This document shows, one piece after another, positions 20,262-47,631 of a stretch of DNA of 47,975 nt. The notes under the pieces are model-generated. The model did no database searches. It was not told the origin of the DNA and saw nothing but the letters and a program-made list of their open reading frames with translations. Position numbers and translations under genes: made by a program. The stretch comes from a bacterium (GTDB lineage Bacteria; Oederibacteriota; Muellerivitia; Muellerivitales; Muellerivitaceae). The first letter of the stretch is position 1; every line of letters begins with the position of its first letter. Location: positions 1 through 47,975 of the forward strand of contig DASZRK010000036.1 of NCBI GenBank assembly GCA_035549195.1, read 5' to 3'.

Positions 20262-21521
<1,260 letters not shown>

Positions 21522-22886: not shown

Positions 22887-22890
22887 GTCC

Positions 22891-24393: not shown

Positions 24394-24406
24394 TAAGAGC
24401 ATCTTT

Positions 24407-24436
24407 GGAATAAATAGGTCTTTTGACACCACTTAT
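24407..24436 (+). promoter_or_regulatory. Candidate ECF promoter upstream of sigma A
   Basis: GGAATAAA at 24407-24414, a 15-nt spacer, then CACTTAT at 24430-24436. It starts 14 bp after the preceding stop. The same bipartite motif occurs before sigma B and all three giant genes. It ends about 46 nt before the TTG start of sigma A. Confidence 0.6.
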
Positions 24437-24482
24437 GGGTATGGCCCCCATCCGACCCCAAACCGACGAGACGGAGACATCC

Positions 24483-25857: not shown

Positions 25858-25935
25858 CTTTGTTGAAATTCTGTCCGAATTCCTTCGCCTTTTAGATTTC
25901 CCGTGAAAACTCTCCCTTAATTTTTTCGAATTTTT

Positions 25936-25965
25936 GGAATAAGCCCGACCCTTCCCGCCACTCTT
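25936..25965 (+). promoter_or_regulatory. Candidate ECF promoter of the first giant gene
   Basis: GGAATAAG at 25936-25943, 15-nt spacer, CACTCTT at 25959-25965, 104 nt upstream of the giant's ATG by its first base. Matches the motif before both sigma genes. Confidence 0.6.
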
Positions 25966-26039
25966 TCACGAGTGCAATAGGACGACATGATATCCGTTTA
26001 AAAACCTCTTTCCCCCCGTGGAAAGGAATGTGACTTCCT

Positions 26040-29000
26040 ATGAAACAGACAGACCGTATTTTAATAAAAGGATATAGCAGGATTGGGGCGGCCCTTATCG
26101 CCGCCCTTTTTTTCAATTTTGGTTCCGTGTTCTCCCAAACCCTCGCTGTTCACGGATTACCAGGAGACTGGTGGTCGGACAGGATCCTTGGCCAAGCCGA
26201 TAACGGAATTCCGGGATCTGCTTTCAAGGAGATGTGCTTTAACGAAATTACAGAGAAAACACTTTTTGATCCGAAGAACGCCTGCATGGATCCTGCGCGG
26301 GACAGGTTATTTATTTGGGATTCAAGTAATAGCAGGATCCTAGTGGTCCATAACGCTACCAACGCGTCCCCTGGCCAAGGGGCCGATGTGGTCCTCGGGC
26401 AGCCTGATTTCCACCACGGCGCCTGTAACCACGATGGAAACAACCAGAATTACGATTGGCATCTTTCCGTCAATCCTGCCGTGACTCCGACTGCCGACTG
26501 TCTTTGCGGTGATGTTGGACAATCCCCAGCTGAATCATGGTCCATCAACAATATGGCGGTCGATCCCTCTGGAAATCTCTATGTGCCAGACCTTTTCAAC
26601 AACCGGATCCTCCGTTTCGACAACCCTTTTTCCAACGGAGAATCCGCATCCTACGTTTGGGGTCAGCCCAATTTTAACGGGATGACCGGTAACAACGATG
26701 GGACCGGTCACGTAGGTGCCCCCTCGAACTCGAACTTGAGCTTTGACCGGGAAGGGGGGGTCGCCATAGACGGAAACGGAAATCTTTGGGTGGCGGATCA
26801 ACTCAATAACCGTGTGCTCAGATTTCCTGTGGGCTGTACGGGTGTTCCCCAATCCCAGGCGGATGTGGTCTTGGGTCAGCCGAATTTTACTACCGCTGTT
26901 CCTTCGAGCGGTCCTTCCGATTACAGCCATCTCCTGAGTCCATCGGCGGTCCGGATTGACGCTTCAGGAAATGTTTATGTGGCGGAATATGGGAGCTTCG
27001 CACGGATCTCGGTGTTTTATCCGACGGGAACAAATCTAATGACCTGTGGGGTAAATTCGGTCACACAGTTTCAATATGCGAATTCCGCTACCGCTGATTA
27101 TCACTTTCCGATAAGTATTAGCGTCGCGACCGGAATGGAATTCGATCCTCGAACCATTACTTTTCCGATAGAACCACCTCAAAACACCTATTCCGCCACC
27201 CAGTTCAGTCTCTGGATCAGTAATAGCGTTTCCCAGGTCCCCTACCAGGTATCTCTTTCGGGCGGCTTCCCGTCCGTGATCACGTCAGTGGTGGACCTTG
27301 CCACTTCGGTGCCGACCAACGGGGGATCGGCGGGGATCGCTGCGAATGGGGATATTTACAGTACTTTCACCAATAGTCACACCACAGCCAGGTTCCAGGC
27401 TCCAGGATATTCTTCTTATCAGGAAATTTTCGAAATGCCGGCGGCTGGGTTCCCTGTTCCCAATAAAACGGGAAACGTTGGTTTGTATGTTCCCAATGGA
27501 ATCTCCGTGGTCCAGGCCGAGGGCCAAAGCCAGATCATCGTCGCGGATGGTCTCCGACTACATTTTTGGAACCTAGGGTCCAGCGGACCTTCCGGTCTTG
27601 CCAATGGCCAGCCGGAGGATGGATATGCGGGAACCAATCTTCCTCTTGCCTTCCAAGCAACAGGTTTTCATGAAACGGCGGTCCAGGCCGTGACCAATCT
27701 TTGGGTTATTCACTCCACTTCCGAAGGTTTCGATCAACTGGTCGAAAGGTACCTTCTGCCATTCAGTATGACCTCTCCCCAAACTTCGCCTCACGATACT
27801 TTGGACGGAAGGAACCCGATACCAGTCCTCGGCAAGGACATCACGGTGGGATGGACCAACCTTTGGGGATTGGCTGCGGATGATTATGGGGATCTGTGGG
27901 TCTGCGACCAGTGGAAGAATCGAGCCCTGCGGATCCGCGATCCCTTGGGTGCGACCAATTCCTGTGGAGGGTTGCCGGGGCCTTGCGTGGACATGGTCAT
28001 TGGCCAGCCCGATCCGGGCATGGGACCGATCGGTTCCGCGTGTAATGGGACCGGAGTGAACGTCACTGGTTCAGGCCTGGGGCCTTGCGATGTCACCACT
28101 CCTTCGGACCATACATTGAACGCTCCGGGGTATATCCAGATGGACCACCATGGGGACCTATTCATCTCGGATCATTCCTTCGAATCCCAGGGGAATTGCC
28201 GCGTTCTCCGGTTTGATTCCAAAACACTCACGCCGCCAAATTTTCCCACTTGCCTTTTCGGGCTCAAGGCGGATGGGATCTATGGAACAGGCGGCAGTTT
28301 TACGGCTTACCGTCCATGCTTTGAGGGAGCCTGCGTCCCAGGGGCGAATAACGCGGCTTATTGCTGGCAAACAACCTTCAATCATGATGACAGCATCATG
28401 GTGGTCGGTACGGACAGCCAAATGAACGGACATCCGCCCATCATCATCCAAAACCCGCGGAACGGCATCAATCCATCGGGCATTCCGGACGATCCGGGAG
28501 CGGGCGATAATCCGATCGGATACCTCAACGATTATGGTTTCCAATGCCCGGCATTGACCTTTGACGACCAAGACAATCTTTATGTGGCTGAGATGAACCG
28601 GAGCCGCGTCGGTATCTACCTGGAGCCTTTCCCCACATCCATACCGAGCCCCACTCCAACGTTCACCCCCACTCCCCAATGCGTCTATTGCCAAATCGGC
28701 TCGGCGTTCATTTCATCGGGACTCTTAGGTCCCGTGGGAGTCACTTCGGATGCTACCTATCTCTATGTGGCGGACCGGCAAGCTCATGCGGTCAATAAGT
28801 ATAAACTTGCCGATGGATCCTTACAGGCGACCTTCGCCAATGCCGCTTTCGTGAACCTTAATTACATGGGAGGGGATGGAGCTGGACATCTTTTTGTCGC
28901 CGATTCGGGCGCCCATGCGGTGTTCGAGTTGGATGGTTCCACGGGAGCGATCATTTCCACTATCACGGACGCTGGAATGAATGTGGTTGAGAGCGCCTCT

Positions 29001-32000
29001 ATCGGGGACGACGGGGATCTTTATGTGGGCGATTTGTCGACGGTCCGTCGTTTCCACGAGACCTCCCCTGGCTCATGGACCGAGATAGCAGTGCTGGGGG
29101 TCCCGGGGGTTGTGGGGAGCGATAATGGGCATTTCAATCTTGTCACGGGCGTGGTGGAGAGAAACGGAGCCGTTTACATCAGTGATTATGGTAACCAAAG
29201 AATCCAACGCTGGAAGGCCCAATGCAACCTCACGCCCTTGAACTATGTCTGGGAGGCCATGGTCGCCTCCCCGGGGATGCTGCCGATCCAAACTGGCTTC
29301 TTTCCAGGCGGGCGTTATGCCTATGAGGATGGCTCGGACCTCAGCATTCGTATTTATGACACATCGACAACGCCTTGGACCCAAGTAAGATCCTGTCCCT
29401 TGGGTGGTTCCAATCCAGCTGGTTTGACGGTGGATGCCAGCGGCAATCTTTTTGTCAGTGATTACGGGTCAGCGAAGGTACTTAAATTCGACCCTCCGAT
29501 GGCTTGTTTTGTCGGGAATGTAACCGAATCTCCGACCGATACGCCGACCTTGCCTTGTGGCGCGAACAACACACCCACACAAACCGTCACCCCTAGTGTC
29601 ACGAATTCAGCGACCAATACGCCGACACAAAGTTCGACGAATTCGCCTACTGCGACCCCGACCCAGACGGCGACGATGACACCGACAGCCACTTATACCA
29701 ATAGCTTTACCTGGACAGCGACCCAAACACCCACACATACAGCGACCGGGACAACTACGGAAACCTCAACTAAGACCGTGACCAGCACCCCATCGGGAAC
29801 GCCGACCAGGACTGCGACGCGCACCGTGACGGCCACGGTCACCCGAACCGCCACAAAAACCCCTTCGGGGACGCCGACCAGGACCGCAACGCGTACCGTG
29901 ACGACCACGGCAACCCGAACCGCCACCCGAACCTCCACAAAAACCCTTTCGGGGACGCCGACCAGGACCGCAACGCGTACCGTGACGACCACGGCAACCC
30001 GAACCGATACCCGAACCCCCACAAAAACCCCATCGGGAACGCCGACCAAAACCCAGACTTGGACCCCTACCCAGACCTCGACGGGTTCAGCTACTCCTAC
30101 TTCGACTCCCACTCCCACCTGCGGCTTCTGTCCTGCGGGAACATCCTTTGTGACGGGTCTCCAAGGGCCGGTTGGCTTGGCGACAGATGCTCATTATCTT
30201 TATGTGGCGGATCGCGCCTCTCGTTCGGTTCTTAAATACCGTCTTTTGGATGGTGCGCTCCTAAACACATTCACGAGTCCTTATTTTGTGAATCCGAATT
30301 ATATGGGGAGCGACGGGATGGGCCATCTTTTCATGGCCGATTCGGGTGCCCAGGCCGTTTTCGAATTGGATAGCACTTCGGGTGCTGTCCTTTCTACGAT
30401 CAGCGATTCAGGGATGAATACGGTTGAAAGCGCCTCTATAGGCGATGACGGAGACCTCTATGTGGGCGACCTAGCCACGGTCCGTCGTTTCCACGAGACC
30501 TCCCCCAATGTTTGGACCCGAATAGCGATCTTGGGAACGGGTTCGACGGGGAACGCAGATGACCAGTTCTTTTTGGTGATCGACGTTGTGGCCCGAAATG
30601 GGGCGGTCTTTGTCGCCGACTATGGGAACAATCGCGTCCAAAGATGGAAACTGACATGTGGCAGTTCCCCCTTGGCGTATTCCTTTGAGGACACTGTCGC
30701 AATTCCGGGAATGGCCCCGATCCAAATGGGGGCGCTGCCCCCCTCGGGTCGCTATTTCTATCTGAATGGATCCGATGATAGCGTCAGGATCTATGACACG
30801 GCCACGACCCCCTGGAGCCCTATCGCCGATTGTGGCCGTGGTTTCTCGAACCCGGCGGGGATGAGAACAGATGCTACGGGGAATCTCTATGTCGCCGATT
30901 ACGGGGCGGGTACTGTGATGAAATACGGTCCAGCCTGTATCCCGCCAGGCGTGGTAGCTTCTCCAACGAGCACACCTACCCAGATCTGTGTCCCGACGGC
31001 TTGCTACGCCTTTAGCTCGGCTTTTCAGGCGGTCGGGAGCGGACCTACCAGTGGCATGGCGGGGCCTTACGACGTTACCTCCGATCCCCAGGGAAATCTT
31101 TACATAACGGCGAATCCCTTCAGCACGGATCCCGCAGTTGTCGTCAAATATGATGCCGGTGGTGCCTATCAGACGCAATGGATGGTACCGTCGAATGCAG
31201 GTGCTTATATCACATCCGATAGTTTGGGGGATATCTACGTGGAATACCAATCGGGCAGCGGCCAACGAAGCGTCCAGGAATACACCTCGACCGGGACACC
31301 TATCGGATCACCCTTGGGGCCTTTTTCCCTCATCGAGGGTTTGGCGGTGGATGGTTCCGACAATCTTTACGTCCTGACCGGCCATCAGAACACTCCCCAG
31401 GTTTTTGTCTACGACTCAACCCATGTTTTGATCCATACCTTTTCTTTCCCAAATATGGGCGGGAATATGGCGGGGTTGGCCATCGACGCGGCGGGAAACA
31501 TGTACGTCGGGAATGTGGCTGGTAGCGGGGTCTACATTTTCAATGCGTCGACCGGTGCTCAGACCGGAAGCTTTCCCCTCCCCAGCGGAGAGACCATTGT
31601 AGACTTGGCCTTTGATAATAGGACGAACCAACTGGTTTTATCGGACGGTGCGACACACTTCTTGACCTATACGCCTTCAGGCGTACTTTTGGGAACTTTC
31701 GGGACCGCTGGTTTGAACCCGGATCAATTCGGGGCGATCAGGGGGATAGGTGTTAGTTCAGGCGGTTGTGTCCTTTTGACCGATACGAACCATCGTTCTG
31801 TCGATACTTGGTGTGCTTGTGGAGATTCCGGCCCGAACCAGAAGCGTGGCGGTTCGTTGGAAACCGTAAGCCATCCTGAAACGCAGACCCCGACACCTAC
31901 TCCTGTGGCCCATCCATTCGCCCTGGCGGCGCCCAACATCTCCCGGGATGGGGAGCCGGTGAAGTTCCTGATTGATCTGGATCGAGACGCCGTCATCCAT

Positions 32001-32198
32001 TTGATCCTCTACAGCGTGGCGGGGGAGCAGGTCATGGCGAAGGACATTTCAGGGAGGCCGGGGCAGAACAGCTTGACCTGGGATCTGGACAACCAGAACG
32101 GGAGTCCAGTGGCCAGCGGACTTTATCTCTATGCCATCAGCGCCGAGGAAGGGAGCCTGATCAAGACCGCCAAGGGCAAAGTGGTGGTCCTCCACTAG
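26040..32198 (+). CDS. Giant secreted NHL-propeller protein 1 with Thr/Pro linkers and FlgD/T9SS-like C-terminal domain
   Basis: 2052 residues. Signal peptide about 1-33. Residues 34-860 contain NHL-type blades with motifs such as [27 protein letters not shown] and [17 protein letters not shown] short PT linker at about 862-878 leads to propeller unit A (880-1165). A 200-residue Thr-rich segment (1166-1360) separates it from unit B (1361-1640), a duplicate of unit A sharing [16 protein letters not shown] and RRFHETSP. A third propeller region spans about 1650-1930. The C-terminal domain (1957-2052) has [20 protein letters not shown] and ends KGKVVVLH. Probably a cell-surface or released protein exported through a T9SS-like route. 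Paralogous to giant 3 from the N-terminus onward. Binding target unknown. Confidence 0.8.
28680..30960 (+). repeat. Internal duplication of a propeller unit in giant 1
   Basis: The unit starting at 28680 ([10 protein letters not shown]...) recurs 1440 bp later at 30120 ([10 protein letters not shown]...). The two share long identical peptide stretches and are separated by the Thr-rich segment. Confidence 0.8.
29793..30045 (+). repeat. 72/84/84-bp minisatellite in the Thr-rich segment of giant 1
   Basis: Copies begin at TCGGGAACG 29793, TCGGGGACG 29865, 29949 and TCGGGAACG 30033, giving spacings of 72, 84 and 84 bp. All are multiples of three and encode [19 protein letters not shown]-type units. 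Confidence 0.85.
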
Positions 32199-32274: not shown

Positions 32275-32607
<333 letters not shown>

Positions 32608-32730: not shown

Positions 32731-32759
32731 GGAATAAAACCACGCATTGGCCCACTGGT
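32731..32759 (+). promoter_or_regulatory. Candidate ECF promoter upstream of sigma B
   Basis: GGAATAAA at 32731-32738, 14-nt spacer, CACTGGT at 32753-32759, 83 nt before the TTG start. The -35-like octamer is identical to that of sigma A. Confidence 0.6.
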
Positions 32760-32813: not shown

Positions 32814-33386
32814 TTGGAAGACCGCGAGTTGGTGCAAAAACTCTTAGCCAAGGACGACCAGGCCTACCGTTATTTCTACGGGACCTACCGGGACCGTATC
32901 TACCGGGCCAGCGTCTATCTGCTCGGTTACCGGGACCCGGAAGCCGAGGATGTGACCCAAGAAGTTTTCCTGGCGGCCCTCCAGCACCTCCCCCAATTCG
33001 AGTTCCGTTCCAGCCTTTACCACTGGCTCTACCGCATCTGCATGTACCAATGCTACGAGCGCATCCGTAAGAGGCGCCGTCAGGTGGCCAGCCTGCAGGA
33101 GGAATTGGAAGCGGCGTCCCAGGCGGGGGCCCTGCGGGACCACGACGGGCCGGAGGAGGAAGCCGAGAAGCAGGTCCTATTGGACCTGCTGGAAAAACAA
33201 AGGGCGCTCTTGGGCGATCCTTGCCGGCAACTCCTGGACCTGTGGGATGTCCAAAAAAGGTCCTACGCGCAAATGGCCGACGCCTTGAAGGTGCCGATCG
33301 GGACCATCATGTCCCGATTGTCCCGCTGCAAGGCGGCGTTGAAGGAACTTTTCTTGAAGGCTTTGAAGGAACGACCGAATGGCTGA
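32814..33386 (+). CDS. ECF-type sigma factor B
   Basis: 190 residues from a TTG with GGGAG 6 nt upstream. Region 2 reads YGTYRDRIYRASVYLLGYRDPEAEDVTQEVFLAAL and SLYHWLYRICMYQCYERIRKRRR; region 4 reads SYAQMADALKVPIGTIMSRLSRCKAALKEL. It is paralogous to sigma A over its whole length, with the DNA-recognition helix region PIGT(V/I)MSRL(A/S)RCK almost unchanged, consistent with both recognising the same promoter. It overlaps the anti-sigma B gene by 8 nt, as in module A. Preceded by its own candidate ECF promoter. Confidence 0.9.
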   Translation: MEDRELVQKLLAKDDQAYRYFYGTYRDRIYRASVYLLGYRDPEAEDVTQEVFLAALQHLPQFEFRSSLYHWLYRICMYQCYERIRKRRRQVASLQEELEAASQAGALRDHDGPEEEAEKQVLLDLLEKQRALLGDPCRQLLDLWDVQKRSYAQMADALKVPIGTIMSRLSRCKAALKELFLKALKERPNG

Positions 33387-34143
33387 TGACCTGATCATCA
33401 AATATTTCCGCGAGAACCTCACCGAATCCGAGGAGGAGGCGCTGGCGGAACGCTTGAGGACCTCCACGGAGGAGGCCCTTCGCTTCGGCCAGCACGCCGA
33501 GGCGTCCTATCGGCATTACGGTTTGCCCGAGCCCCAATGGACGGGCGCGCCTCCGCCGCCCGGGTTCCCCGGGGCCGGGGGCCTGGGAATGAAATTATGG
33601 TTACCCCTGGCCTTGGCCGTCGGTTCGATGGGGTGGATCGGATGGCATTTCGCGGGGACGATGGGGAAGGAACGCCCCCTATCCCCGCCTTCGGCCGCCG
33701 TTTCCGGTCCCCCCGCGCCCTCTTCGAAAGCCCAGGCATCCGCCCCGGGGTGGGAGCAGGAAATTCCGGATGAAGTCCGGGAGGACGCCCCATCGCCGCA
33801 GGAGGATGTGGAAGGCCGGGACCTGTCCGACAGACCCGCTGTGCCGGCTTCCGCCGGGACAAAACCCGCCCTCCTGGCCCCGGTCCCGGCGTCGGCCCAT
33901 AGGACCCATTCCAACCTGGAAGTGGTCGTGAACCGGACGAAGCCCGGGAACCTGACCGTTGAGGTCTTGGACCCTGAAGGCCGCCAGGCGGTCCTGCTCT
34001 ATCAAGGAACCCTTCCGCCGGGTTCCTGGGCCTTCGATTGGGATGGGAACCTGGGGAGCGGCCAAAAGGCGGCCCCCGGGACCTACCGGATCCAGGTGGA
34101 ATCGGGAGCGGTGACCCAAAGCAAACGGGTGGTCATCCGATAG
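33379..34143 (+). CDS. Transmembrane anti-sigma factor candidate with FlgD-like sensor domain (B)
   Basis: 254 residues, paralogue of the 25048 gene. The cytoplasmic N-terminus (LIIKYFRENLTESEEEALAE) and the segment GQHAEASYRHYGLPEPQWTGAPPPP align with FAGLAEAAYVRYGFPEPS of copy A. The membrane helix is at about 73-95 (LWLPLALAVGSMGWIGWHF). A Pro/Ser/Glu-rich linker precedes a FlgD-like domain at about 172-254 (LTVEVLDPEGRQAVLLYQG, WAFDWDGNLGSGQKAAPGTYRIQV, KRVVIR). No zinc anti-sigma motif. The 8-nt overlap with sigma B supports co-regulation. Anti-sigma role is inferred. Confidence 0.7.
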   Translation: MADDLIIKYFRENLTESEEEALAERLRTSTEEALRFGQHAEASYRHYGLPEPQWTGAPPPPGFPGAGGLGMKLWLPLALAVGSMGWIGWHFAGTMGKERPLSPPSAAVSGPPAPSSKAQASAPGWEQEIPDEVREDAPSPQEDVEGRDLSDRPAVPASAGTKPALLAPVPASAHRTHSNLEVVVNRTKPGNLTVEVLDPEGRQAVLLYQGTLPPGSWAFDWDGNLGSGQKAAPGTYRIQVESGAVTQSKRVVIR

Positions 34144-34295
34144 CGCTTTTCCCCTGGAAAGGGGCCATGAAGGCCCCGGACTTGTCTATTCCCATGGTCC
34201 ATTGAATGTGATAAATAAAGGTCCTTTGAGGGGTCTTTCGCCAAGTGCCGGTCCTGAAAGCCCCTTATTGCCGGGTTCGATCAAGGGACTTTCCT

Positions 34296-35786
34296 ATGAG
34301 CTGTATCAATATTTTTCCCCCATGGGAACGGACACACCGGATGGTCGTCCGGACATTCCTCTTTTTTTCGATGATCCTCCTCCTTCCGTCGTTCGTCCCG
34401 GCCTCCCAGACTTTTTATGATCCCTACCTTCACCCGACCCGACCCGATGACGGGGCCGGCTTGGCCAGGGTTTCGGCCCTGGGGGCGGCCTTCACCGGCA
34501 TCGCGGACGACGCCACGGCCTTGCTGTTCAATCCGGGCGGGTTGGGGTTCCTCGACCAGGATCAACTTTCGTTCAACAGCGATCTGGGGTTGGTGGGGAC
34601 CTTGCAGGAACGGTTCATCGCCGGATTCCCCCTGCCGGGTTCGGGAGGCTTGGCCTTCTCGACTTCCTACCTGGATTATGGGACCTTCGAAGGACGGGAT
34701 GGACTAGGCTCCTTGACCAGTCCCTATGGGGCCGATCGAATGAGCCTGGGGGCTGGGGCGGGTGTGGAAGTGGCGCAGGGCTTGGCGGTGGGACTTTCCC
34801 TCCAGGGCGCCCGGAACACCTATGCCGGGGAAGGCTCCAATGAACTTGTTTCCAGCGCCGGTCTTTTATGGAAGGGCCCCCAGGGTTTCCGGGCCGGTGT
34901 TTCCTACCTCGACCTGGCCTGGTTTTCCACCGGAAGCGGCCCCTCGGGGTCCCTGGAGTTGGGACTATCCGAGGACCTGGCCCTGGACAGGGCCAACGGC
35001 CTTTTGATGGCCCTGAGCGGGTCCTGGGAATCCCGGGGGGAAAGCCGACTGAAAGCCGGTGCGGAGTTCGGTTACCAGCATCATTTGTTCCTGCGAGCGG
35101 GCTACCAGTTCCCATTGACCGATCCCCAACTCAATGGGTTGTCGGGTTTGACGGCGGGGGTCGGGGTCCACTTCGGTGACCTTGTCTTGGATTATGCTTT
35201 CCTCCCCTATGGGGACCTGGGGATCGCCCATCGTATCGGCTTGGGCTACTATCTGGGGTCCTCGGGGTCCGCGGGTGCGGGAAGGGCCGGCCTTCCAGGG
35301 TCCGACAAGGAGAAGGACGAAAAGAAGGGGCCTGCTGTCATGGCCCTTCACGCCGCTCCAACCCAGCCGCCCGTGAGCGTTCCCTTGGTCCCGTCGGTCC
35401 AGTCTCGAGCCCAAGAGGGGACACCGGTCCCGCCCATTCCTGCGGCCCCAGCGGCCCCGTTGACGTCCAAATCCACCGCTCAAGGCCAGGCGTCGCCGGT
35501 GCCTGCGGGCGAACTACCCAAAGATTCCCTGGTGGTCCAGTTCGATATGCCCGACGATGAAACTCCGACCCCCGGCGCTGGGACGGCGCCGGGGGACCTG
35601 GCTTCCCTGGAGAGGGCGGTCGAAATGTCGCCCAAAGACCCGAACGCTTGGTGGAATTTGGGGAACGCCTATCGCGGATCCAAGCAGAAGGAAAAGGCCG
35701 TGGCATGTTTCGAAAAGGTCCTGCAGTTACAGCCGGACAACACGAGGTTGGCCGATTGGCTCCAAAAGTACAAGTTGGCGCCATGA
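34296..35786 (+). CDS. PorV/PorQ-like outer-membrane barrel with C-terminal TPR (module B)
   Basis: 496 residues from the ATG at 34296 (AAGGGA 7 nt upstream); an internal ATG at 34341 would give a more classical signal peptide but has no ribosome site. After the signal peptide, VSALGAAFTGIADDATALLFNPGGLGFLD is a clear PorV/PorQ signature, followed by barrel strands and LDYGTFEGRDGLGSLTSPYGADRM, shared with the module A copy. A Pro/Ala-rich linker leads to a C-terminal TPR (PNAWWNLGNAYRGSKQKEKAVACFEKVLQLQPDN). It probably escorts CTD cargo at the outer membrane. No GGAATAA motif lies upstream; it may be read from the sigma B transcript. Confidence 0.78.
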   Translation: MSCINIFPPWERTHRMVVRTFLFFSMILLLPSFVPASQTFYDPYLHPTRPDDGAGLARVSALGAAFTGIADDATALLFNPGGLGFLDQDQLSFNSDLGLVGTLQERFIAGFPLPGSGGLAFSTSYLDYGTFEGRDGLGSLTSPYGADRMSLGAGAGVEVAQGLAVGLSLQGARNTYAGEGSNELVSSAGLLWKGPQGFRAGVSYLDLAWFSTGSGPSGSLELGLSEDLALDRANGLLMALSGSWESRGESRLKAGAEFGYQHHLFLRAGYQFPLTDPQLNGLSGLTAGVGVHFGDLVLDYAFLPYGDLGIAHRIGLGYYLGSSGSAGAGRAGLPGSDKEKDEKKGPAVMALHAAPTQPPVSVPLVPSVQSRAQEGTPVPPIPAAPAAPLTSKSTAQGQASPVPAGELPKDSLVVQFDMPDDETPTPGAGTAPGDLASLERAVEMSPKDPNAWWNLGNAYRGSKQKEKAVACFEKVLQLQPDNTRLADWLQKYKLAP

Positions 35787-35811: not shown

Positions 35812-36978
35812 ATGATCCATCGAAGACTTGCCTTGGTGCTCGGCATGGGCTTGGGATGGGCCGGCGCGGCCTTGGCCCAGACCCCGACCCCCGACTGCTG
35901 CATGGGGTTGACCCAGATCTCGGGCTTGAACGGGCCCGCTGGGATGGCGATCGACCCGGCCCGGGACCGGCTTTACGTGACGGACCGGCTGAACAATTAT
36001 TTGAGGGTCTATACGGAAGCGGGAGCGCCGGTCACGGCCTTCAATACCTGGAGCGGCGGTGGGTTCAACCAGCTCCAGGATGTGGCCCTGGACGACCAAG
36101 GCAACGTGTATGTGGCGGATTACAGCAATTATGTCGTCGAGAAATTCAGTTCCGGCCTCTCCTTTTCCGCGACCATCATCAACCTGTGGCCCTACGATCT
36201 TCCGCGCGGCATCTGGGTCGAAGACCAGGGCGTGAGCCAATCCGTCTTCATCGCGAGCCAATACGGCCATATCTACCGCTATGACGGCGCCGGTACTTCC
36301 TATTCGGCCGCTGTGACCTTCGGGACAGGCTTGAATACCCCCACGGGATTGGAGAAAAAAGGGAACATGGTCTATGTGGCCGATACGGTCAATAACCGGG
36401 TGGTGGTCTTTGACGCTTCCAGCGCCTATTCAGCGGCCGCCACCTATTCTTTCGACTTTCCCTATTTCATCCATACGGACACAAGCGGTCAATTTTACGT
36501 GACCGAAGCGGCCAGCACCCAAAGGCTCAATACCTTCCCAAATGGTTTGGGAGGCGCTCGGACCACTTGTCCGGTGCCGAATGGGGCCGCCGGCATCGCC
36601 GTCAATGGGCTGGGCAACGTCTTTGTCAGCGAGATCAATGGATCGGCGGTGACTTTGTTGCAGGGATGTGATCCTGGCTATACGCCCACACCCCACCCCG
36701 TGACCGGGAATTTCTTCATATATCCATCACCCGTCCGGGGGGACCAAGCCACCGTTTCCTATGAAATGGCCGAGCCGGGCCGGATGGACCTGAGGGTCTG
36801 GAACGAAAAGGCCGAGATCGTGACCCGGGTGACGGAGCAGAAGCTATCCGGCACCCAAATTAGCCCAATTTCTGTCGCAGGATTCAGGTCCGGTGTTTAT
36901 TTCTATATGGTCACCCTCCATTACGATTCGGGCCGGGAAGAAAAACTGGGTCCGAAAAAATTTATTGTATTGCACTAG
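35812..36978 (+). CDS. Secreted NHL beta-propeller protein with FlgD-like C-terminal domain (module B)
   Basis: 388 residues from the ATG at 35812 (GGGAG 7 nt upstream). Signal peptide MIHRRLALVLGMGLGWAGAALAQ, then NHL blades at about 25-285 (DRLYVTDRLNNYLRVY, GNVYVADYSNYVVEKF, NMVYVADTVNNRVVVF, GNVFVSEINGSAV), a TPTPHP linker and a FlgD-like domain at about 300-388 (FIYPSPVRGDQATVSYEMAE, SGVYFYMVTLHYDSGREEKL, KKFIVLH). Aligns throughout with 21678-22886, sharing the unusual PRGIWV-DQG-SQS-FI segment. It follows the PorV-like gene by 25 bp. Probably surface-exposed; function unknown. Confidence 0.8.
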   Translation: MIHRRLALVLGMGLGWAGAALAQTPTPDCCMGLTQISGLNGPAGMAIDPARDRLYVTDRLNNYLRVYTEAGAPVTAFNTWSGGGFNQLQDVALDDQGNVYVADYSNYVVEKFSSGLSFSATIINLWPYDLPRGIWVEDQGVSQSVFIASQYGHIYRYDGAGTSYSAAVTFGTGLNTPTGLEKKGNMVYVADTVNNRVVVFDASSAYSAAATYSFDFPYFIHTDTSGQFYVTEAASTQRLNTFPNGLGGARTTCPVPNGAAGIAVNGLGNVFVSEINGSAVTLLQGCDPGYTPTPHPVTGNFFIYPSPVRGDQATVSYEMAEPGRMDLRVWNEKAEIVTRVTEQKLSGTQISPISVAGFRSGVYFYMVTLHYDSGREEKLGPKKFIVLH

Positions 36979-37169: not shown

Positions 37170-40100
37170 ATGTCCTGGATAATGGATGGCAGTGGATCAT
37201 CTAAAAAGGCCATGTGTCTGGCGCTTTTTTTATTATTTTTTATGCTGGATCAATCCGTGTGGGCTTCAGGCCGACAACAGTTGCAAGGACATTTGCCCCG
37301 TGAAATGCAGAACGCCTCCCTTGTAGGCGATGTTCCCATTACGGAAAGTTTGGATCTGGGAATTGGATTACCTTTAAGAAATCAGGAAGTTTTGCATCAA
37401 TTGTTGAGGAATTTATACGACCCTAAAAGCCCAGAATACCATCATTTCTTAACCCAAGAACAATTCACGGCATTTTTTGGCCCGACGGAATCGGATTATC
37501 GATCCGTTGTAGATTTTGTCAAAGCTCAAGGCCTTTCAGTGACAGGAATTCATTCTGGCCGCACCTTGTTGGAAGTAAATGGAACCGTCCAAGCGATCCA
37601 AAAGATGTTTCATGTCAAATTGCGTCATTTTCGCAGATCTGATGGAAGTCAATTTCGAGCTCCGGATGCCGAACCCTCCATAGACTTGGACGTGCCGTTG
37701 TCCCATATATCGGGTTTGGAGAATTACGCCCAACCCAAGAATTTTTTGAATATTAAGTCAGTTCTGTCTGCATCCATGCCGCGTGGTGCTTTGAGTGGGA
37801 AAACATCCAATGGCCCCACGGTTTTTGCGGGATCTGGAATTTCCGGAACTTATATCGGAAGTGATTTTCGGAATGCCTACCTTTCGAACCCAACATGTCT
37901 TCCATCTCTCACCGGTAGCGGTCAAAATATTGCATCAATTCAATTGGAAGGCTACTACGCTTCCGATATCGCCAACTACGAAAGCTTTGCAGGCATTCCC
38001 AGCAATGTTCCGATCAATGTTTTGTGTGGCGGATCGACGGGAGCACCAGGGGCAAGTACCGATGAACAAAGCCTCGATATTGAGATGCAAGTGTCCATGG
38101 CCCCATCGGCCAATATATATGTTTATGTAGCTCCCCCTACTCCGGCGGGATGGGACAGCCTTTTCGTCAATTTGGCGAATCCACCTGCCGGGGTTCCTCA
38201 AGCGAATCAGGTCAGCAGTTCCTGGGGGTGGTTCCTGGATTCGACCATTTCCAATGCGCTTCTGCAAATGTCCGTACAAGGGCAATCTTTTTTCCAAGCT
38301 TCAGGCGATTCTGATGCCTATTCATCGGACCCAGTGGATAACAGGGATGGGCTTTATACGACATTGGTCGGAGGAACCACCCTTTCCATGACCGGCTCTG
38401 GAGCGGCCTATTCTTCAGAAACCACCTGGAACTGGGGTGGTGGCATCGGAAGCGGTGGTGGGATCATGACGAGCCTTTCGATCCCTTCCTATCAAACATG
38501 GATTTCGATGACAAGCAACTACGGTTCGACCCTCCACCGTAATGTGCCTGACGTCTCCATGACTGCGGACAATGTCTTTGTGACGGCAAACAATGGGGGC
38601 CTGTATAACGAAGGTGGCACAAGCTGCGCTGCCCCCCTTTGGGCCGGGTTCACGGCATTGGTCAACCAAAAGAGAGCTGCGGTGGCATTAGCCCCTGTGG
38701 GGTTCTTTAACCCGACTCTTTACGCCTTGGCTTCTGTGCCAGCCAGTTATAGCAACGACTTCCATGACATCGCCGATGGCAGTAATAACGGAACATCCAC
38801 GCATTATCCAGCGGTCGTTGGCTACGACTTGGCAACGGGGTTGGGTAGCCCAAAATGTAATCTGATAAATGACTTGTTGATTACCCCTACTCCTACCCCC
38901 ACCTTCACCCCCACCTTCACTCCCACCTTTACCAATACCCCGACTCCAATCCCTGTTTGTACTCAGCCTGTACCGGGACCCAACTGCTGTCAGTTAGATA
39001 CGGTCTGGGGTACGGCCGGATCCTTGAATTTTAGTGCGTTGAACCTAGGCTCAGAATTGGGGATCGTCGTGGACTCGCAATATGCCTATTTTGCCATGTA
39101 TGGCACGACCAATGGTGGCGGTGGAATCCAGGTTGTCAATCGGTGTAATGGAGCAACCATGAATTTCATCCCAACCACCTCAAATCCATTTGGGATCGCC
39201 CAGGATGGAAACGGATCGTTGTACATCGCGGAACATGATCAAGGTCAAGCTTCCGTATTTAATCCGGTCTCGGGTTTGAAAGTCGGTGCCTCTTTTGGGG
39301 GCGGGATATTAGCGAACCCCCGTGGCATTTGGGTGAACAATGCGGGATTGGTGGTTTTTGTTACTGGTGAAGACGATCAAGTCCACCGCTTTGAACGCTC
39401 TTCCATAAGTGCCAACTTTACGGTTTCTTCGGCAACCTTAGGGACGACCGAAGGAAGTGGAAGCGATCAATTTAGAAATCCCGAGGGAATCGTTGTGTTC
39501 GAAGATGTGGCTTCGCTGGGAGGGCGGGATGTGGTTTATGTGGCGGATACGGGGAACAGCCGGATCCAGAAGTGGGTCGAAACCGCCGCAAACAGCCATT
39601 CGTATCAATTCGTCATGACCGTGGCATCGGGGTTCCAACCTAGACTCATGACCACGGATAACATGGGTCATATCTTTTTGGTCGGAACCGACAACACCCT
39701 TCGTGTCTTTAATTATGGGACCCACGGGACCACTTGGGGCGCGCCCGTCTATACCTGCCCTTCGTCCGGATCCTTAGGAATTGCGGTGGACAATTGGGGG
39801 ATGATCTACGCGGGGAACGATACGACCAAGATTGTCAAGAAGATCACGGTTTGCGCTTTTCCAGCTCCACCCACGGCTCCTGCGCCTGGTAGCAACTGTT
39901 GCTCATTGGATACGGCTTGGGGAACCAGTGGTAGCTTGAATCTGACCAGTCTTGGTAAGGGACCTGAATATGGGTTGGCGGTCGGGCCCCAAGACGCTTA
40001 TATGGTCATGTATGGTACAGGAGGCGCTTTAGGCGGTATCGAAATCGTCAACCGGTATACAGGCATTGCAGGTGGGTTCATCGCGACAACCTCCAATCCT

Positions 40101-42149
40101 TATGGGATCGCGCGGGACAACCAAGGTCTGCTTTATCTGGCAGAGCACGACCAAAGCCAGGTGTCGATATTTGACCCGGCCATAGGTCAAAAAGTCGGCG
40201 CATCCTTCAGTACTGGGGGCTCATCCAATCCACGTGGGATCTGGGTGAACGGTGCGGGTCTGGTTGCTTTTGTCGCCGGGGAGGATGACCGGGTTCAAAG
40301 ATTCGAACGCCCCTCGACGACGGTCGATTTCACGGCGGCGCCGGTGGTTTTTGGTTCATTCGGGACCACTATGGACAAATTCACGAATCCGGAAGGGATC
40401 GTGGTGTTCGAAGATGTGGCTACACTGGGCGGGCGGGACGTGGTTTATATAGCGGATACGGGCAACAACCGGATCCAGAAGTGGGTTGAGACCACGGCCA
40501 ATAGCCACTCTTACCAAGCGGTGATGACGGTGGCTTCTGGGTATCAGCCGCGTCTTATGACCACGGATAACGCGGGTCATATCTTCGTGATGGGCACCGA
40601 TGGCACTTATCGTGTCTACAATTATGGGAACCACAATTCCACATGGGGCGATCCCATCTATACCTGTACGACCACGGGTTCGGTCGGAATTGCGGTGGAC
40701 GATTGGGGCAGGGTTTATGGCGGGAATGACACAAGCAAGGTGGTCAAGAAATACCTGGCCTGTACGTTCCCGGCTCCACCCACGGCTCCCGCGCCTGGCA
40801 GTAATTGTTGCTCATTGGATACGGCTTGGGGAACCAGCGGGATATTGAGCCTTTCCCAACCATTCGGGATCGTCGTAGGGGCAACCGATGCTTATATCGC
40901 CTTACGAGGGGCGACGACGAATGCTGGTGGGATCCAGATCGTCAATCGCAATACAGGAATTCCTGGGGCGTTCCTGGCTACTCAGACCAATCCATTTGGC
41001 ATCACCTTGGATGGTCAAGGATTGTTGTATCTGGCGGAGTATCTTCAAAATCAGGTTTCTATCTATGATCCCTCGATCGGCCAATTGGTTCCGGGTTCGA
41101 CTTTTGGCGGATCAGGGACAGGGAATGGAAAATTCCAGAACCCGAAAGGGATCTGGGTCAGTAGCGATGGACTCATATGCTTTGTCTCCGAAGAAGGAGA
41201 CAGAGTTCAACGCTTTGATCGTCCATCGATCAACAGCACCTTTAGTTATACCTCGAAATTGGGGAATGGCATTGATCACATGAGCGGGATCTCCGACCTT
41301 TGGAATCCTGAGGGTGTGGTCGTGCTTCGAGGTGCCTTATCCGGCAAGGATGTGGTTTATATTGCGGATACCGGGAACAGTCGTATCCAACGCTGGATCG
41401 AGACCGGAGTCGGGACACGAGCCTACAATCCGGATTCATCCATCACATTAGCGCGAGTTGCGACCGGCTTCCAACCGCGGCTCATGGCCACCGATTACGC
41501 GGGTCATCTTTATGTCATGTGCACGGACGGCACCTATCGGGTGTTCAATTATGGGAACCACACCGGGACCTTGGGTTCTGTCATCGATAGCTGCCCCAAT
41601 ACGGGACGTACGGGCATCGCGGTGGATAGCTGGAGAAGGGTTTACACGGGAAGTGAAGTTTCTAATCAAGTCAAAAAATACATAGCTTGTACCGCGAATT
41701 CGGGAGGCACGCCCTCTCCGGCAATTCGTGAAGGAATCGGAGATGGTGGGGAAGAAGGGGCGGACAGTTCTACACTGGACCTGCATCCGACCGCTACTCC
41801 AACTTTTGTCCCGGATGGAAGAGAAACGGCCACGGCGACGCCCACATCCACACCAAACAGAAATGATTTTGTCGTCGTAGCTCCCAATGTTTCGAGGAAT
41901 GGGGAACCCATCAAGTTCCTCGTGAATCTGGAGAAGCCGGCCCGGATCGACTTGACACTTCTGGCCATCTCCGGGGAAACGATCTTCTCGGAGACCCTCC
42001 GGGGGGAATCTGGCTGGAACACCCTGAACTGGGGATTGGACAACCAACAGGGAAGCTCGGTGGCCAGCGGCCTTTATCTCTTCATCCTGGAAGCAAACGA
42101 TGGCGAGACGGTTCAGGTCAAGAAGGGCAAGGTAGCGGTCCTGCATTGA
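37170..42149 (+). CDS. Giant surface protein 2: sedolisin (S53) protease with three propeller repeats and FlgD/T9SS-like C-terminal domain
   Basis: 1659 residues. Signal peptide about 1-33. A pro-kumamolisin activation domain at about 35-190 (DPKSPEYHHFLTQEQFTAFF, LLEVNGTVQAIQKMFHVKLR). The S53 catalytic domain spans about 215-570 with the full set of residues: E299 and D303 (DEQSLDIEMQ), oxyanion D380 (ASGDSDA), S485 (GGTSCAAPLWAGF), and the calcium-site end DIADG...GYDLATGLGSP. A short PT linker is followed by three tandem repeats of about 303 residues starting near 605, 908 and 1211, each opening with a Cys-Cys pair. The CTD is at about 1565-1659 and ends KGKVAVLH. Sedolisins are acid-active endopeptidases, usually secreted. 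GC content is visibly lower than in the flanks. Confidence 0.88.
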   Translation: MSWIMDGSGSSKKAMCLALFLLFFMLDQSVWASGRQQLQGHLPREMQNASLVGDVPITESLDLGIGLPLRNQEVLHQLLRNLYDPKSPEYHHFLTQEQFTAFFGPTESDYRSVVDFVKAQGLSVTGIHSGRTLLEVNGTVQAIQKMFHVKLRHFRRSDGSQFRAPDAEPSIDLDVPLSHISGLENYAQPKNFLNIKSVLSASMPRGALSGKTSNGPTVFAGSGISGTYIGSDFRNAYLSNPTCLPSLTGSGQNIASIQLEGYYASDIANYESFAGIPSNVPINVLCGGSTGAPGASTDEQSLDIEMQVSMAPSANIYVYVAPPTPAGWDSLFVNLANPPAGVPQANQVSSSWGWFLDSTISNALLQMSVQGQSFFQASGDSDAYSSDPVDNRDGLYTTLVGGTTLSMTGSGAAYSSETTWNWGGGIGSGGGIMTSLSIPSYQTWISMTSNYGSTLHRNVPDVSMTADNVFVTANNGGLYNEGGTSCAAPLWAGFTALVNQKRAAVALAPVGFFNPTLYALASVPASYSNDFHDIADGSNNGTSTHYPAVVGYDLATGLGSPKCNLINDLLITPTPTPTFTPTFTPTFTNTPTPIPVCTQPVPGPNCCQLDTVWGTAGSLNFSALNLGSELGIVVDSQYAYFAMYGTTNGGGGIQVVNRCNGATMNFIPTTSNPFGIAQDGNGSLYIAEHDQGQASVFNPVSGLKVGASFGGGILANPRGIWVNNAGLVVFVTGEDDQVHRFERSSISANFTVSSATLGTTEGSGSDQFRNPEGIVVFEDVASLGGRDVVYVADTGNSRIQKWVETAANSHSYQFVMTVASGFQPRLMTTDNMGHIFLVGTDNTLRVFNYGTHGTTWGAPVYTCPSSGSLGIAVDNWGMIYAGNDTTKIVKKITVCAFPAPPTAPAPGSNCCSLDTAWGTSGSLNLTSLGKGPEYGLAVGPQDAYMVMYGTGGALGGIEIVNRYTGIAGGFIATTSNPYGIARDNQGLLYLAEHDQSQVSIFDPAIGQKVGASFSTGGSSNPRGIWVNGAGLVAFVAGEDDRVQRFERPSTTVDFTAAPVVFGSFGTTMDKFTNPEGIVVFEDVATLGGRDVVYIADTGNNRIQKWVETTANSHSYQAVMTVASGYQPRLMTTDNAGHIFVMGTDGTYRVYNYGNHNSTWGDPIYTCTTTGSVGIAVDDWGRVYGGNDTSKVVKKYLACTFPAPPTAPAPGSNCCSLDTAWGTSGILSLSQPFGIVVGATDAYIALRGATTNAGGIQIVNRNTGIPGAFLATQTNPFGITLDGQGLLYLAEYLQNQVSIYDPSIGQLVPGSTFGGSGTGNGKFQNPKGIWVSSDGLICFVSEEGDRVQRFDRPSINSTFSYTSKLGNGIDHMSGISDLWNPEGVVVLRGALSGKDVVYIADTGNSRIQRWIETGVGTRAYNPDSSITLARVATGFQPRLMATDYAGHLYVMCTDGTYRVFNYGNHTGTLGSVIDSCPNTGRTGIAVDSWRRVYTGSEVSNQVKKYIACTANSGGTPSPAIREGIGDGGEEGADSSTLDLHPTATPTFVPDGRETATATPTSTPNRNDFVVVAPNVSRNGEPIKFLVNLEKPARIDLTLLAISGETIFSETLRGESGWNTLNWGLDNQQGSSVASGLYLFILEANDGETVQVKKGKVAVLH
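38982..41690 (+). repeat. Three tandem 0.91-kb repeats in giant 2
   Basis: Copies begin at 38982, 39894 and 40803 (spacings 912 and 909 bp). Shared features include NCC(Q/S)LDT-WGTSG, NPEGIVVFEDVA-LGGRDVVYIADTG and QPRLM-T-GH. Copies 1 and 2 are closest; copy 3 has an insertion in the middle. Confidence 0.9.
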
Positions 42150-42244: not shown

Positions 42245-42272
42245 GGAATAAAGCCGGGTCTCCGGCACTGGT
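42245..42272 (+). promoter_or_regulatory. Candidate ECF promoter of giant 3
   Basis: GGAATAAA at 42245-42252, 13-nt spacer, CACTGGT at 42266-42272, 80 nt before the TTG start. Both half-sites are identical to those of sigma B; the spacer contains a small hairpin GCCGG-GTCT-CCGGC. Confidence 0.6.
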
Positions 42273-42324: not shown

Positions 42325-45300
42325 TTGAAATCGGGTATCTTCCCAATCGAACGTTCCTCCTCCCCCAAGGGCCGTGGCTCTCTCGCCACGGGCGGAATAT
42401 TGCTCTTGGTGTTTTTGACCGCCCCGGCTTTCGCCACCCCGCCCCGCGGGGTATCGGGCGATCTTTGGGCCGACCGTATCCTTGGCCAGCCGGATTTCAC
42501 CGAGACCAAGTTCAACGAAACCAACGCCCGGAACCTCTACAATCCCACCAGCGTCCACGTGGACATCGCCCACAACACCCTTTACCTTTGGGATTCGGGC
42601 AACAACCGCCTCTTGGCTGTCCATAACCTCAGTTCGGCGGGGAACGACCAGGGCGCCGATATGGTCCTGGGCCAGCCCGATTTCAACCATTCCTCCTGCA
42701 ATGGCGACTCTTTCTGGCAGGATTTCCTTTGGTCCAACAGCCCGAACGGTTTCCATAGTCCCCCGGTCCTCCCGAACGCTTCCTGCTTTTGCGGTCAGGG
42801 TTACATGCTCCAATCTCCCGCCGAGGCTTGGTCCACCGCCAATATGGACAATGACGCGGCTGGCAACCTTTATGTGCCGGATTACATCAACAACCGGATC
42901 CTTCGGTTCGATTACCCCCTCTCCACCCACCAAACGGCCTCCCACGTTTGGGGCCAGTTGGACGGGTCCGGGAACGAGCGATTCGACTATCAGGCCTATG
43001 ACAACGGGGGAGCCAACAATCCTTCCACGCCCACGAACCAGAACCTCGGTTTTTTCCCGACGATCTATGGGGATGAGGGCGGTCTCCCCCAATACGGGGC
43101 GGGGGTGGCCTTGGACCGTTGGGGGAACCTGTGGGTGGCCGATTCCCAGAACCAGAGGGTCCTTCGTTTCCCGAACGTAAGTGGCCTCCCGTCCCATACG
43201 GCCGACGTGGTTTTGGGCCAGGCCAATTTCAACTCCAACGGGACCAATACCAATGTCAACAACCTCACCAGCCTCCCGATCCTCAACGACCCGCTGGCGT
43301 TGAGGGTGGACTATTCGGGCAATGTCTATGTGGTGGAATCCAATAATTACTATGGCCGGTTGACCATCTTCCAGCCGACAGGAACGGACGGTTCCGGGGT
43401 CCCGGTCTACGCGAACCATGGCGCCACCCAAAAGATCGTGGTCTCCGGCTCCACAGGCCCCATGGGGATCGAGATCGATCCCGCCATGAACAACACCTCC
43501 CAGGTGGGGTTGTGGGTGATCGACCATCTCCAGTTCAAGATGTTCCGTTATCAGGTGACATGGCCCGCTTTTTCCTATACCACCACCCGGACCATCAATA
43601 CGCCCGAGTGCCTGGCCTCTCCCGGCATCGATGGGGTGGGGAACCTTTACATCAGCAATTACCGGGGCATGGGAGTTTTGCGCTATCCCGCGGGGAGCAA
43701 CAACTACGATCTCTCGATCTTCCAGCAGCCCACCGGTGCCAATAACACCCAGAACAAGATCGGGGACGTTGGTTTCTATGTGCCGGACGGGGTTCTCGTG
43801 GCACCGCTTCCCGCGGCGGGAGTGACCCAACTGATCGCGGCGGACGGGATCCGCCTGCATTTTTGGAACATGCCCAATGGGGACCCGACCGCGCTCTCCA
43901 ACGGCCAGCCCGAGGACGGTTACGCGGGCACCAGCCAGCCCTATGTCTTCAATTCCTCCTATTCGGCGGGGTTCGGGGAATTGGCCCTGGACGCCAATGG
44001 GACGGCCCTCTGGACCCTGAACGCCACCAATCCGACCCGGGTGGAAGCCTATAGTCTTCCCTTGCCGCTCCCAGGAGCGGCCGAAACCTCCCCGGTCCGG
44101 ACCCTCGCATCCCCCTTGCCGGTCCTAGGGAAGACCGTCACCGTGCCCTGGACCAGCCTCGCCGGACTGACCGCCGACGAAGCGGGGAACCTGTGGATCG
44201 CCGACAGTCCGCACAGCCGGGTGATGCGTATCCGCGACCCCTGGGGCCAGACCTTGGGTTGTAATGGCCAGCCCGGTCCCTGCGTGGACGTGATCCTGGG
44301 ACAACCGGACCCGGGGTCGGGCCCTATCCCTGCCAACTGCAATGGGGTCGCCACCTCCTCCCCTTGCAATGGTTCCCCCAGCGCCTCCACGTTGAATTTC
44401 CCGGGACAATTGGCCATGGACCATCACGGGGACCTCTTCGTATCGGATCATATGCTCGAATTCTTCGGGAACTTACGCCTATTGAGGTACGACGCCAAAT
44501 CGATCCCGGCGAACAATCCCAGCTGTGTTTTCGCCATCCCGGCCGACGGGGTCTATGGGACCGGGGGAAGCTTTACGACCTATGGCTCCACCCTTTACGA
44601 CAAATCCTTCTGGAAACCCGCCTTCAAATCCGACGATTCGGTCATGGTCGTGGGGACGAACAGCCAGGCCAGCGGGGGATATCCCCCGGTCATCATTCAA
44701 AACCCCTTGAACGGTGTGAGGCCCGCCGGGACCCCCGATATCCCCGGCGCCGGTGACAATCCGGTCGGCCATTTGAACGATTATGGTCCCCAATCCTTTG
44801 CCTCGGTCTTCGATGATCAGGACAACCTTTACGTGACCGAACTGAACCGGAACCGGGTCTTGATCTATCAGCATCCTTTCGGTACCCCGGGCCCCACTTC
44901 GACCCCCACCTCCAGCTTCACTCCCACGCCTACCGGAACCTCGACCCATACCCCAACCCCGACCGCCACCTCCACGTCCACCTTCACCGGGACCTTACCG
45001 ACCGACACGCCCTCCTTCTCCCCCACACCGACATTGACCCCCACGTCGACGGCCAGCCCGACGCCGAGTTGGACCCCGACCCCTACTTCGACATGGACCT
45101 CGACCTTCACCTCCACGGCCTCACCCACACCCACGGGGTCCTGGACCCCGACCCCCACGAACAGCCCTGTCCTGGCTTGTGGCACCATTGTTTGGACCCA
45201 GACCCCCAACAGCCTCTCCGTCGCCCGTGGGATCGCGATCGACTACGGCCGGGGCCTGGGTTATGTGGCGGACAACAACAGCGTGCGCAAGTTCGACCTG

Positions 45301-47631
45301 ACCACTGGTGCCCTCACGGGGACGGTCGGCGCGGGCAACCAATTCGGGTCACCCCAAGGGATCAACCTGGGCGGGGACGGGAACCTCTATGTGGCCAATT
45401 ACAGTACGGGCAATCTCCAGAAGGTGGACCCGGTCTCGGGGACCGTCCTGGCGACCATTGGTTCCACCGATGGACTTGGGACTGTCCGGGACGTTTTCGT
45501 GGACGGCAATGGGGACCTTTACCTTACCGCCACCGCCAGCACCAACTCCCTGGTGCGCTATGTCTATGGGGCGCCTGCGACCTGCGGCGGGATCCCCACC
45601 TACACCAAGGTCATCCTGACCCTGGGCGGGACCGCCTTGAACACGCCCACGGGCATCGCCAAGGTAGGGCCACGGCTTTTCGTGGCCGATTCCCTCCATA
45701 ACCGCGTGGTGATGTACCGGGAATCCACCACCGGTTCGAACAATTACGACCAAGCCACGGTCCTGACGGGTAATTCGGTCGCCCTCAACACGCCGCAGGA
45801 GCTGACCACCGACCTGGCGGGGAACATCTACGTGGCCGACTACGCCAACCAGGCCTTCGTGGTTTGGGGCCCGGACGGGACCTTCCAATCCAATTATCAA
45901 AAGAGCGGTTTTGGAAGCCCCTTCGGAGTCGGGGTGGACGCGTCCGGTAATGTCTATTTGGCCGACGCCAGCTCGGTGAACCGCGTGGTGAAGGTTTTTG
46001 GAGGATGTCTCAGCGAACCCGCCTACGGCACCTCCACCCCCACGGCCTCCTGCACGCCGACCTCCACCCGGACGGCCACCCCCTCGCCGACCCCCACCTC
46101 GACCTATAGCCCTACGGCCAGCCCGACCGACACATGGACGGGAACGTCCACGCCGACGGATACCTCCACTTCGACCTGGACCTTCACGGCCAGCGCTACC
46201 GATTCGCCCACCGATACCCCGACCGACACTTCGACCTGGACCTTCACCAACACGTCCACCTGGACCCCGACCGACACGCCGACCGATACCTCGACCCATG
46301 TCTTCACCGCCACTCCCACGGACAGTGCGACGGATACCTGGACCGATACCGCTACTTCGAGCCCGACCGGTACGTTCACTTTCACCCCGACGGTCACTTT
46401 TACATCGACCGCGACCCCCACGTTCACCGACACCTGGACCGCGACCTTCACTCCCACCCCAAGCTTCACCCAAACTCCGACCCCTTCCTATACGCCGACC
46501 GGGACCTTCACCGTGACACCGACCGCCACTTTCACCGTTACCGGCACTTTCACTAAAACCGCCACTTCGACCTTCACCCGGACCCCTACCCTGACCGCGA
46601 CCCGGACCAATACGGGAACGATCACTCCGACCCCTACCAGGACCCAGACACCCACCCGGACGGGGACGCCGACCCGGACCAACACTCCCACGAAGACCTC
46701 GACCCCTACATCAGGGACCGGATGCGGGACCAGTACGGCGAACCTACAACTGATGGAATTCAGCAGCTGCGGCGGCAACCAGTCCATGGAAAAATTCGAG
46801 GTCATCAACAAGGGGACCGCGCCGGTCACCCTTTCGGACATCTCCATCAAATTCTGGGTGGACGATGTTTCCGGACAAGGATTGGTGGGAGCGGTCAACT
46901 ATGGCGGTTGTTTTGGTTCCACTTGTACGGCCGTATCCGGAGTGGCCGTCCATACGCTGAGCTTCTCCCCGGCCTGCGGACCCGACGGCACCCATCAAGC
47001 CGATTGGGAGGTCACCCTATCGACGACCGACAGTCGGACCCTGGCCGCCGGGGTGACTTGGGCCAATATCCAGACCGCCCTGCACTTGTCCAATTGGTCC
47101 AATTTCGCCAATAGTTCCATATGGTACAGCCCCTGTGGAGTAGGGGGCGGAACGACCTATACCAACGACCTGCATTATGCGGTCTACTTGAGGGGGAACC
47201 TGGTGACCGCTTCAGGAGGGATACCCCCCGCCTGCCGGCCTTTGCCGACCTGCACGCCCAATGGTGGCTCGATGATGGCCATGGTCCTCGGGGACCAGGA
47301 TAAGGCGACCTCCACCCCGACCGCCGGATCCGACCGGGAAAGGGTCCCGTTCGCCATGGCGGCGCCGAACATCTCGCGGGATGGGGAAGAGGTGAAGTTC
47401 CTGGTGAGATTGGAACAGGCCTCCACCATCCATTGGGTCCTCTTCGACCTTTCCGGGGAAAAGGTCCTCGCCCGGGATATCCAGGGGCAAGCGGGCACTA
47501 ACAGTCTGTCATGGGTTTTGGACAATCAGAACGGGAGCCCCGTGGCCAGCGGTCTCTATCTCTACGCCATCAGCGCCCAGGAAGGGAGCCTCATCAAGAC
47601 CGCCAAAGGAAAGGTGGTCGTCCTCCACTAG
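42325..47631 (+). CDS. Giant secreted NHL-propeller protein 3 with CBM3-like module and FlgD/T9SS-like C-terminal domain
   Basis: 1768 residues from a TTG with AAAGG 6 nt upstream; the resulting signal peptide ends ...[12 protein letters not shown] near 37. Residues 38-855 are NHL-type blades paralogous to giant 1 ([45 protein letters not shown]). A Thr/Pro linker (about 855-950), a second propeller (951-1230) and a longer Thr-rich segment (1233-1464) follow. Residues 1470-1635 resemble family 3 cellulose-binding modules ([41 protein letters not shown]). The C-terminal domain (about 1673-1768) ends [20 protein letters not shown]...KGKVVVLH, almost identical to giant 1. Probably a surface protein that could attach to polysaccharide. 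Confidence 0.8.

Follow-up and report, generated by a model that had tools for sequence, protein, structure and literature searches.

What does a bacterium of the candidate division FCPU426 do with a sedolisin (S53) protease that is fused to three propellers and a putative sorting domain, and that is encoded among genes resembling a secretion cassette? The gene lies on a contig stretch of 47,975 nucleotides, referred to below as the window; the host genome (G000) is a member of a family in FCPU426. The features on which the argument draws are collected in Table 1.

Table 1. Features of the window and of two related cassettes, with the evidence for each assignment.
Feature	Position	Strand	Basis
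Module A (NHL protein, PorV-TPR, ECF sigma, anti-sigma, giant 1)	21678..32198	+	paralogous cassette
GGAATA/CAC motif 5' of the module B sigma gene	32731..32755	+	
ECF sigma factor (module B)	32814..33386	+	TIGR02937 E=7e-23
Anti-sigma-like membrane protein, C-terminal FlgD/CTD-like domain	33379..34143	+	position and layout suggest the anti-sigma role
TPR-tailed barrel of the PorV/PorQ family, likely shuttle	34245..35786	+	NF033709 E=6e-21, under its curated cut-off; TPR matches
NHL propeller protein, type-A-like sorting tail	35812..36978	+	Por_Secre_tail E=9e-4
Candidate ECF-type promoter GGAATA-N16-CAC, 72 bp 5' of the S53 start codon	37098..37122	+	
S53 protease / triple propeller / CTD protein, 1659 aa	37170..42149	+	open frame; Pfam and PDB matches
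Putative Sec signal peptide, aa 1-32 (KK, hydrophobic core, SVWA)	37170..37265	+	by eye from sequence alone
Pro-kumamolisin activation domain, aa 48-174	37311..37691	+	PF09286 E=1.4e-26
S53 catalytic domain, about aa 241-572	37890..38885	+	alignment to 1t1e and kumamolisin-As; conservation
TP-rich linker	38886..38957	+	sequence
NHL-type propeller 1, start near NCC motif	38958..39869	+	tandem-copy comparison; NHL repeats in Pfam search
NHL-type propeller 2	39870..40778	+	AlphaFold2 pLDDT 86.5; best Foldseek matches to NHL propellers
NHL-type propeller 3	40779..41699	+	tandem-copy comparison
C-terminal T9SS-type sorting domain, end GKVAVLH	41862..42146	+	model pLDDT 95.5; matches PorZ 5m11, PorU 6za2, FlgD
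GGAATA/CAC motif 5' of giant 3	42245..42268	+	
Giant 3, multi-propeller protein, CBM3-like domain, same CTD as S53 protein	42325..47631	+	profile matches, sequence comparison
Subtilase + IgGFc_binding + NHL or Kelch + CTD, cassette protease slot	L153 10380-15770		
Subtilase + IgGFc_binding + NHL or Kelch + CTD, cassette protease slot	L154 13038-19106		

Judged by its sequence, the protein is a genuine member of the S53 family. In a search of PDB sequences, prokumamolisin 1t1e aligns end to end with residues 34-562 (E=3.4e-38), and the pro-domain scores 93.9 bits in the Pfam search against a PF09286 cut-off of 23.5. The 1t1e alignment and conservation within the family place all of the catalytic residues (E299, D303 and S485) as well as the oxyanion D380. 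Among 20 S53 sequences from FCPU426, E299, D303 and D380 are invariant and S485 is kept in 19, the sole exception (L051) being a row that ends at the contig end. The calcium segment retains D533, I534, G551 and D553, with one backbone glycine replaced by valine. In pro-domain, catalytic domain, active-site and oxyanion residues and calcium segment the protein is like kumamolisin (MEROPS S53; PDB 1t1e, 1sio), which, however, has neither propellers nor a sorting domain. An acid-type enzyme would fit these observations: lysine and arginine are scarce in the catalytic domain, whose computed pI of 4.1 is consistent with an acid optimum without proving one. Two further hints are the analogy with the family and the recorded occurrence of the phylum in an acidic peat (pH 4.0; PMC3660313).

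The three propellers are tandem copies of ~303 residues that start near NCC motifs and share pairwise identities of 65%, 54% and 46%. NHL repeats are detected in the protein with PF01436 (E=4e-14), and the model of the second copy finds its closest solved structures among NHL propellers, for example Thin, TRIM2 and PknD. The final 95 residues are modelled as a beta-sandwich, with PorZ 5m11 and PorU 6za2 among its structure matches; FlgD and other Fn3/Ig-like domains score equal to PorZ and PorU against this model. Neither of the curated CTD models (TIGR04183, PF18962) matches the S53 protein over its cut-off, and profile searches with this protein give E=0.061 for FlgD_ig and E=0.0063 for the PorZ CTD. 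The likeness to T9SS type-A cargo such as RgpB, PorZ and PorU consists in an Ig-like beta-sandwich at the extreme C-terminus, in a genome with SprA and PorV homologues; the differences are the GKVxVLH ending, the scores below the Pfam/TIGR cut-offs and a C25 sortase that was not found. PorZ of Porphyromonas gingivalis likewise has tandem propellers followed by a CTD, but its propellers are two and it lacks the protease domain.

Is this combination peculiar to the window? The sequence-only reading had described a complete protease, with pro-domain, catalytic residues and calcium segment, fused to three propellers and a sorting CTD, an architecture not known to be described. The first part agrees with the PF09286 match, the 1t1e alignment and the 20-sequence conservation, the fusion with the tandem-copy identities and fold models, and no exact match to the architecture was found. 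No second case of the exact S53/triple-NHL/CTD order was found in the phylum genomes searched, and the triple propeller, sought in the 58 other genomes, returned nothing beyond weak pieces at 30-37%. What does recur within the phylum is the general plan: its S53 genes carry TP linkers and the same or related CTDs, while the middle varies among Kelch propellers, malectin, L-type lectin, CBM5/12 and NHL. In the FCPU426 lineage, S53 coupled to other binding modules and the same CTD forms a theme. An S53-PA14-Kelch-NHL-CTD protein of genome G002 (L047) comes closest; its S53 part has one in-frame stop at about 7809-7811, reflecting a pseudogene, an assembly error or recoding.

Outside the phylum, the best 80 named S53 loci are mostly from Verrucomicrobiota. 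The giant-tailed proteins of that group (Limisphaerales) likewise place S53 before long extracellular repeats, and their S53 regions are roughly 40-48% identical to that of the window. Their tails are mostly Ig-like, HYR or DUF11, with DUF5122 or RCC1 propellers in a few, as against NHL here; of 79 families, the 25 most frequent do not include NHL, a tally that a rare NHL tail could escape. Recent transfer of the S53 gene from Verrucomicrobia was considered and is unsupported: the window's S53 pairs with that of genome G006, outside the Verrucomicrobia cluster, in a tree whose deep forks are weak. The literature searched held nothing relevant on sedolisin with a propeller or on kumamolisin with NHL.

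How would such a protein reach the cell surface? Because its CTD falls under the curated cut-offs and FlgD and Ig-like domains score equally, the case for a T9SS rests on the gene set: SprA, PorV, the CTD matches and the adjacency of PorV and CTD genes. A SprA/Sov translocon gene outside the window encodes 1960 aa and scores 227.4 bits with TIGR04189 (cut-off 200), and SprA matches are present in 40 of the 45 phylum genomes. The host genome has ~23 PorV-family genes and 47 matches to the CTD profile, seven of them strong (98 bits or more). Seven PorV genes have a CTD gene at a distance of at most 2 kb (binomial p of about 0.001 by a crude uniform model). Several stand directly next to one, and such neighbours are likely private shuttle/cargo pairs. 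Linkage of a cargo gene to its own outer-membrane shuttle is also seen in Flavobacterium johnsoniae (PMC12618676), although there the shuttles are of the PorP/SprF type and the CTDs of type B, whereas here the shuttles belong to the PorV family and come with a private sigma/anti-sigma pair. GldM (TIGR03517) had no match in the genome, and the model matched none of the controls either. The C25 domain of PorU-type sortases was not found in any of the eight family genomes, although the search did detect it in genomes of other phyla and in four FCPU426 genomes outside the family. Thirteen matches of the whole-protein PorU model in the host genome cover only the CTD and were not counted as PorU. 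T9SS-like export in the host is well supported, the S53 protein is very probably T9SS-type cargo, and from the CTD, PorV and SprA we infer that it is held at the surface. The SprA/Sov homologue (L061, 3093-8975) lies directly 3' of genes for a histidine kinase-like protein and a LytTR response regulator.

The gene order of module B is sigma, anti-sigma, PorV-TPR, NHL, S53 and giant 3, and its proteins are 33-54% identical to their paralogues in module A (42% between the NHL protein and its counterpart at 21678). Among the NCBIfam T9SS models, the CTDs of the giants score best against that of PorZ. The anti-sigma-like proteins of the window (25048-25857 and 33379-34143) and of the related loci L048, L043 and L150 share a conserved FlgD/CTD-like C-terminus, and full-length relatives occur throughout the family; this domain is expected outside the inner membrane and is a possible sensor of export.

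Comparison of upstream regions in the window yielded the motif GGAATA-N13..17-CAC, a candidate ECF-like promoter of the cassette genes. It occurs seven times in the window against 1.18 expected, and five of the occurrences precede sigma1, giant 1, sigma2, S53 and giant 3. As the motif was chosen from these very regions, the fair test is G002, where eight matches fall in 40 kb, with 1.1 expected; five precede sigma1, giant 1, sigma2, S53 and PorV2. In L152-L155 and L157 the motif is also present 5' of genes for sigma, PorV, protease and giants, usually with GGAATAAA as its extension, but no copy precedes the genes of L043 or the cassette genes of L156 and L158. It was not found upstream of the host's other strong-CTD genes (on C2, C17 and C1), which suggests that it marks the cassettes rather than all CTD cargo.

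The most informative result lies in the position of the gene. Synteny of sigma2, anti2, PorV2, NHL2 and S53 extends over three genomes: that of the window, G002 (L048, L150, L151) and G006 (L043, with a second NHL segment). G002 has both modules, B preceding A, and an S53-Kelch protein at the S53 position; module B of G006 ends in the S53 protein that most resembles that of the window, at 57% identity, but its tail consists of Kelch and malectin. At two loci, G006:C10 and G001:C110, the same slot is occupied by S8 subtilisin proteases with the same CTD, proteins of 1797 and 2023 aa that combine the subtilase with IgGFc_binding, NHL or Kelch and CTD and have the triad motifs IDTGV, GHGTH and GTSMAAP. 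The slot is conserved over five loci, including the two S8 examples. The functional link to the neighbouring genes suspected from the window alone is thereby upheld, as the slot persists in other genomes even with a subtilisin in place of S53. The S53 gene is the cargo of a conserved export cassette that is probably under ECF control. Since related cassettes keep a serine protease while swapping its family and binding modules, the surface protease itself seems to be the object of selection: the cassette appears to require one, of whichever family.

We consider it the better-founded account, and hold it with moderate confidence, that the product is an ECF-induced, T9SS-exported and surface-held acid S53 endopeptidase, filling a slot selected for a surface protease that works with the propeller proteins of the cassette. 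The zymogen would leave the cytoplasm via Sec, its CTD would route it across the outer membrane by way of the SprA/Sov-type translocon, and at the surface it would probably be retained by the PorV-family barrel whose gene lies two positions upstream. By analogy with kumamolisin, the pro-domain may block activity until external acidity triggers self-cleavage, and the three propellers could position the protease by binding a ligand or partner. The cassette's ECF sigma would switch the protease on together with its gene set. Its role would most likely be feeding on or remodelling external protein and, less certainly, maturing the giants.

Could maturation be the dedicated function instead? A surface protease trimming the giants or NHL proteins of the cassette, for example at TP-rich linkers or before CTDs, would account for the retention of a protease beside a giant, under the same promoter motif, while the protease family changes. 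However, the specificity of S53 enzymes is broad, as known for the family, and cleavage sites are not credibly predictable; moreover, the S53 proteins of G002 and G006 carry Kelch or malectin modules and no NHL propellers, a better fit to foreign substrates. We therefore regard a dedicated maturase as rather unlikely, although it fares best among the alternatives.

Another possibility is suggested by the formal resemblance of the cassette to the attachment complex of P. gingivalis, which consists of the protease PorU, PorZ with its two propellers and CTD, PorV and PorQ (PMC8545088). A serine-protease version would assign the role of PorU to the protease, that of PorZ to the propellers and that of PorV/PorQ to the PorV-TPR barrel. 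The lack of C25 in the family, against many positive controls, the confinement of the PorU model to CTDs and the closeness of the giants' CTDs to PorZ all speak for it. Yet PorU is a transpeptidating cysteine peptidase, whereas hydrolysis is the ordinary activity of S53 and S8 enzymes, and in two family genomes (G005, G007) S53 has no match. Most other genomes of the phylum, some of them without S53, likewise lack C25, which implies that a sortase may not be needed. Such a substitution is improbable. Its generalisation is likewise a long shot: FCPU426 would have a C25-free T9SS whose cassettes supply their own ECF sigma, an anti-sigma with a CTD decoy sensing export, a PorV shuttle and a swappable serine protease as the substitute for PorU in sorting and attachment.

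The protease is not tied to the cassette, for two further S53 genes of the host stand outside it: they lie in tandem (L060, 4516-9681), encode proteins of 1008 and 713 aa that have TP linkers and a CTD, and lack the promoter motif. S53 genes occur in 10 of the 45 phylum genomes, many of them outside cassettes, and large-tailed S53 proteins are common in soil and peat Verrucomicrobia; but an ordinary extracellular scavenging protease in a random neighbourhood, its cassette link coincidental, is very improbable in view of a placement and gene order shared by three genomes, the motif upstream of S53 in two and S8 in the slot elsewhere.

An exported surface protease selected as part of its cassette would connect S53 enzymes with T9SS-type export, a combination on which the literature searched holds no relevant paper, and would do so in a candidate phylum absent from the list of T9SS-bearing phyla (PMC11285876). 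The exchange of S53 and S8 within a fixed slot offers a direct way to ask what use a surface protease is to a secretion cassette, and through the CTD-like tail of the anti-sigma cells could sense export, a mechanism that lends itself to testing. A further peculiarity of the locus is a repeat just before module B, where the 3' end of an isocitrate dehydrogenase-like gene (21237-21521) recurs at 32323-32607 over 285 bp at 95% identity, which suggests the scar of a segmental duplication or rearrangement.
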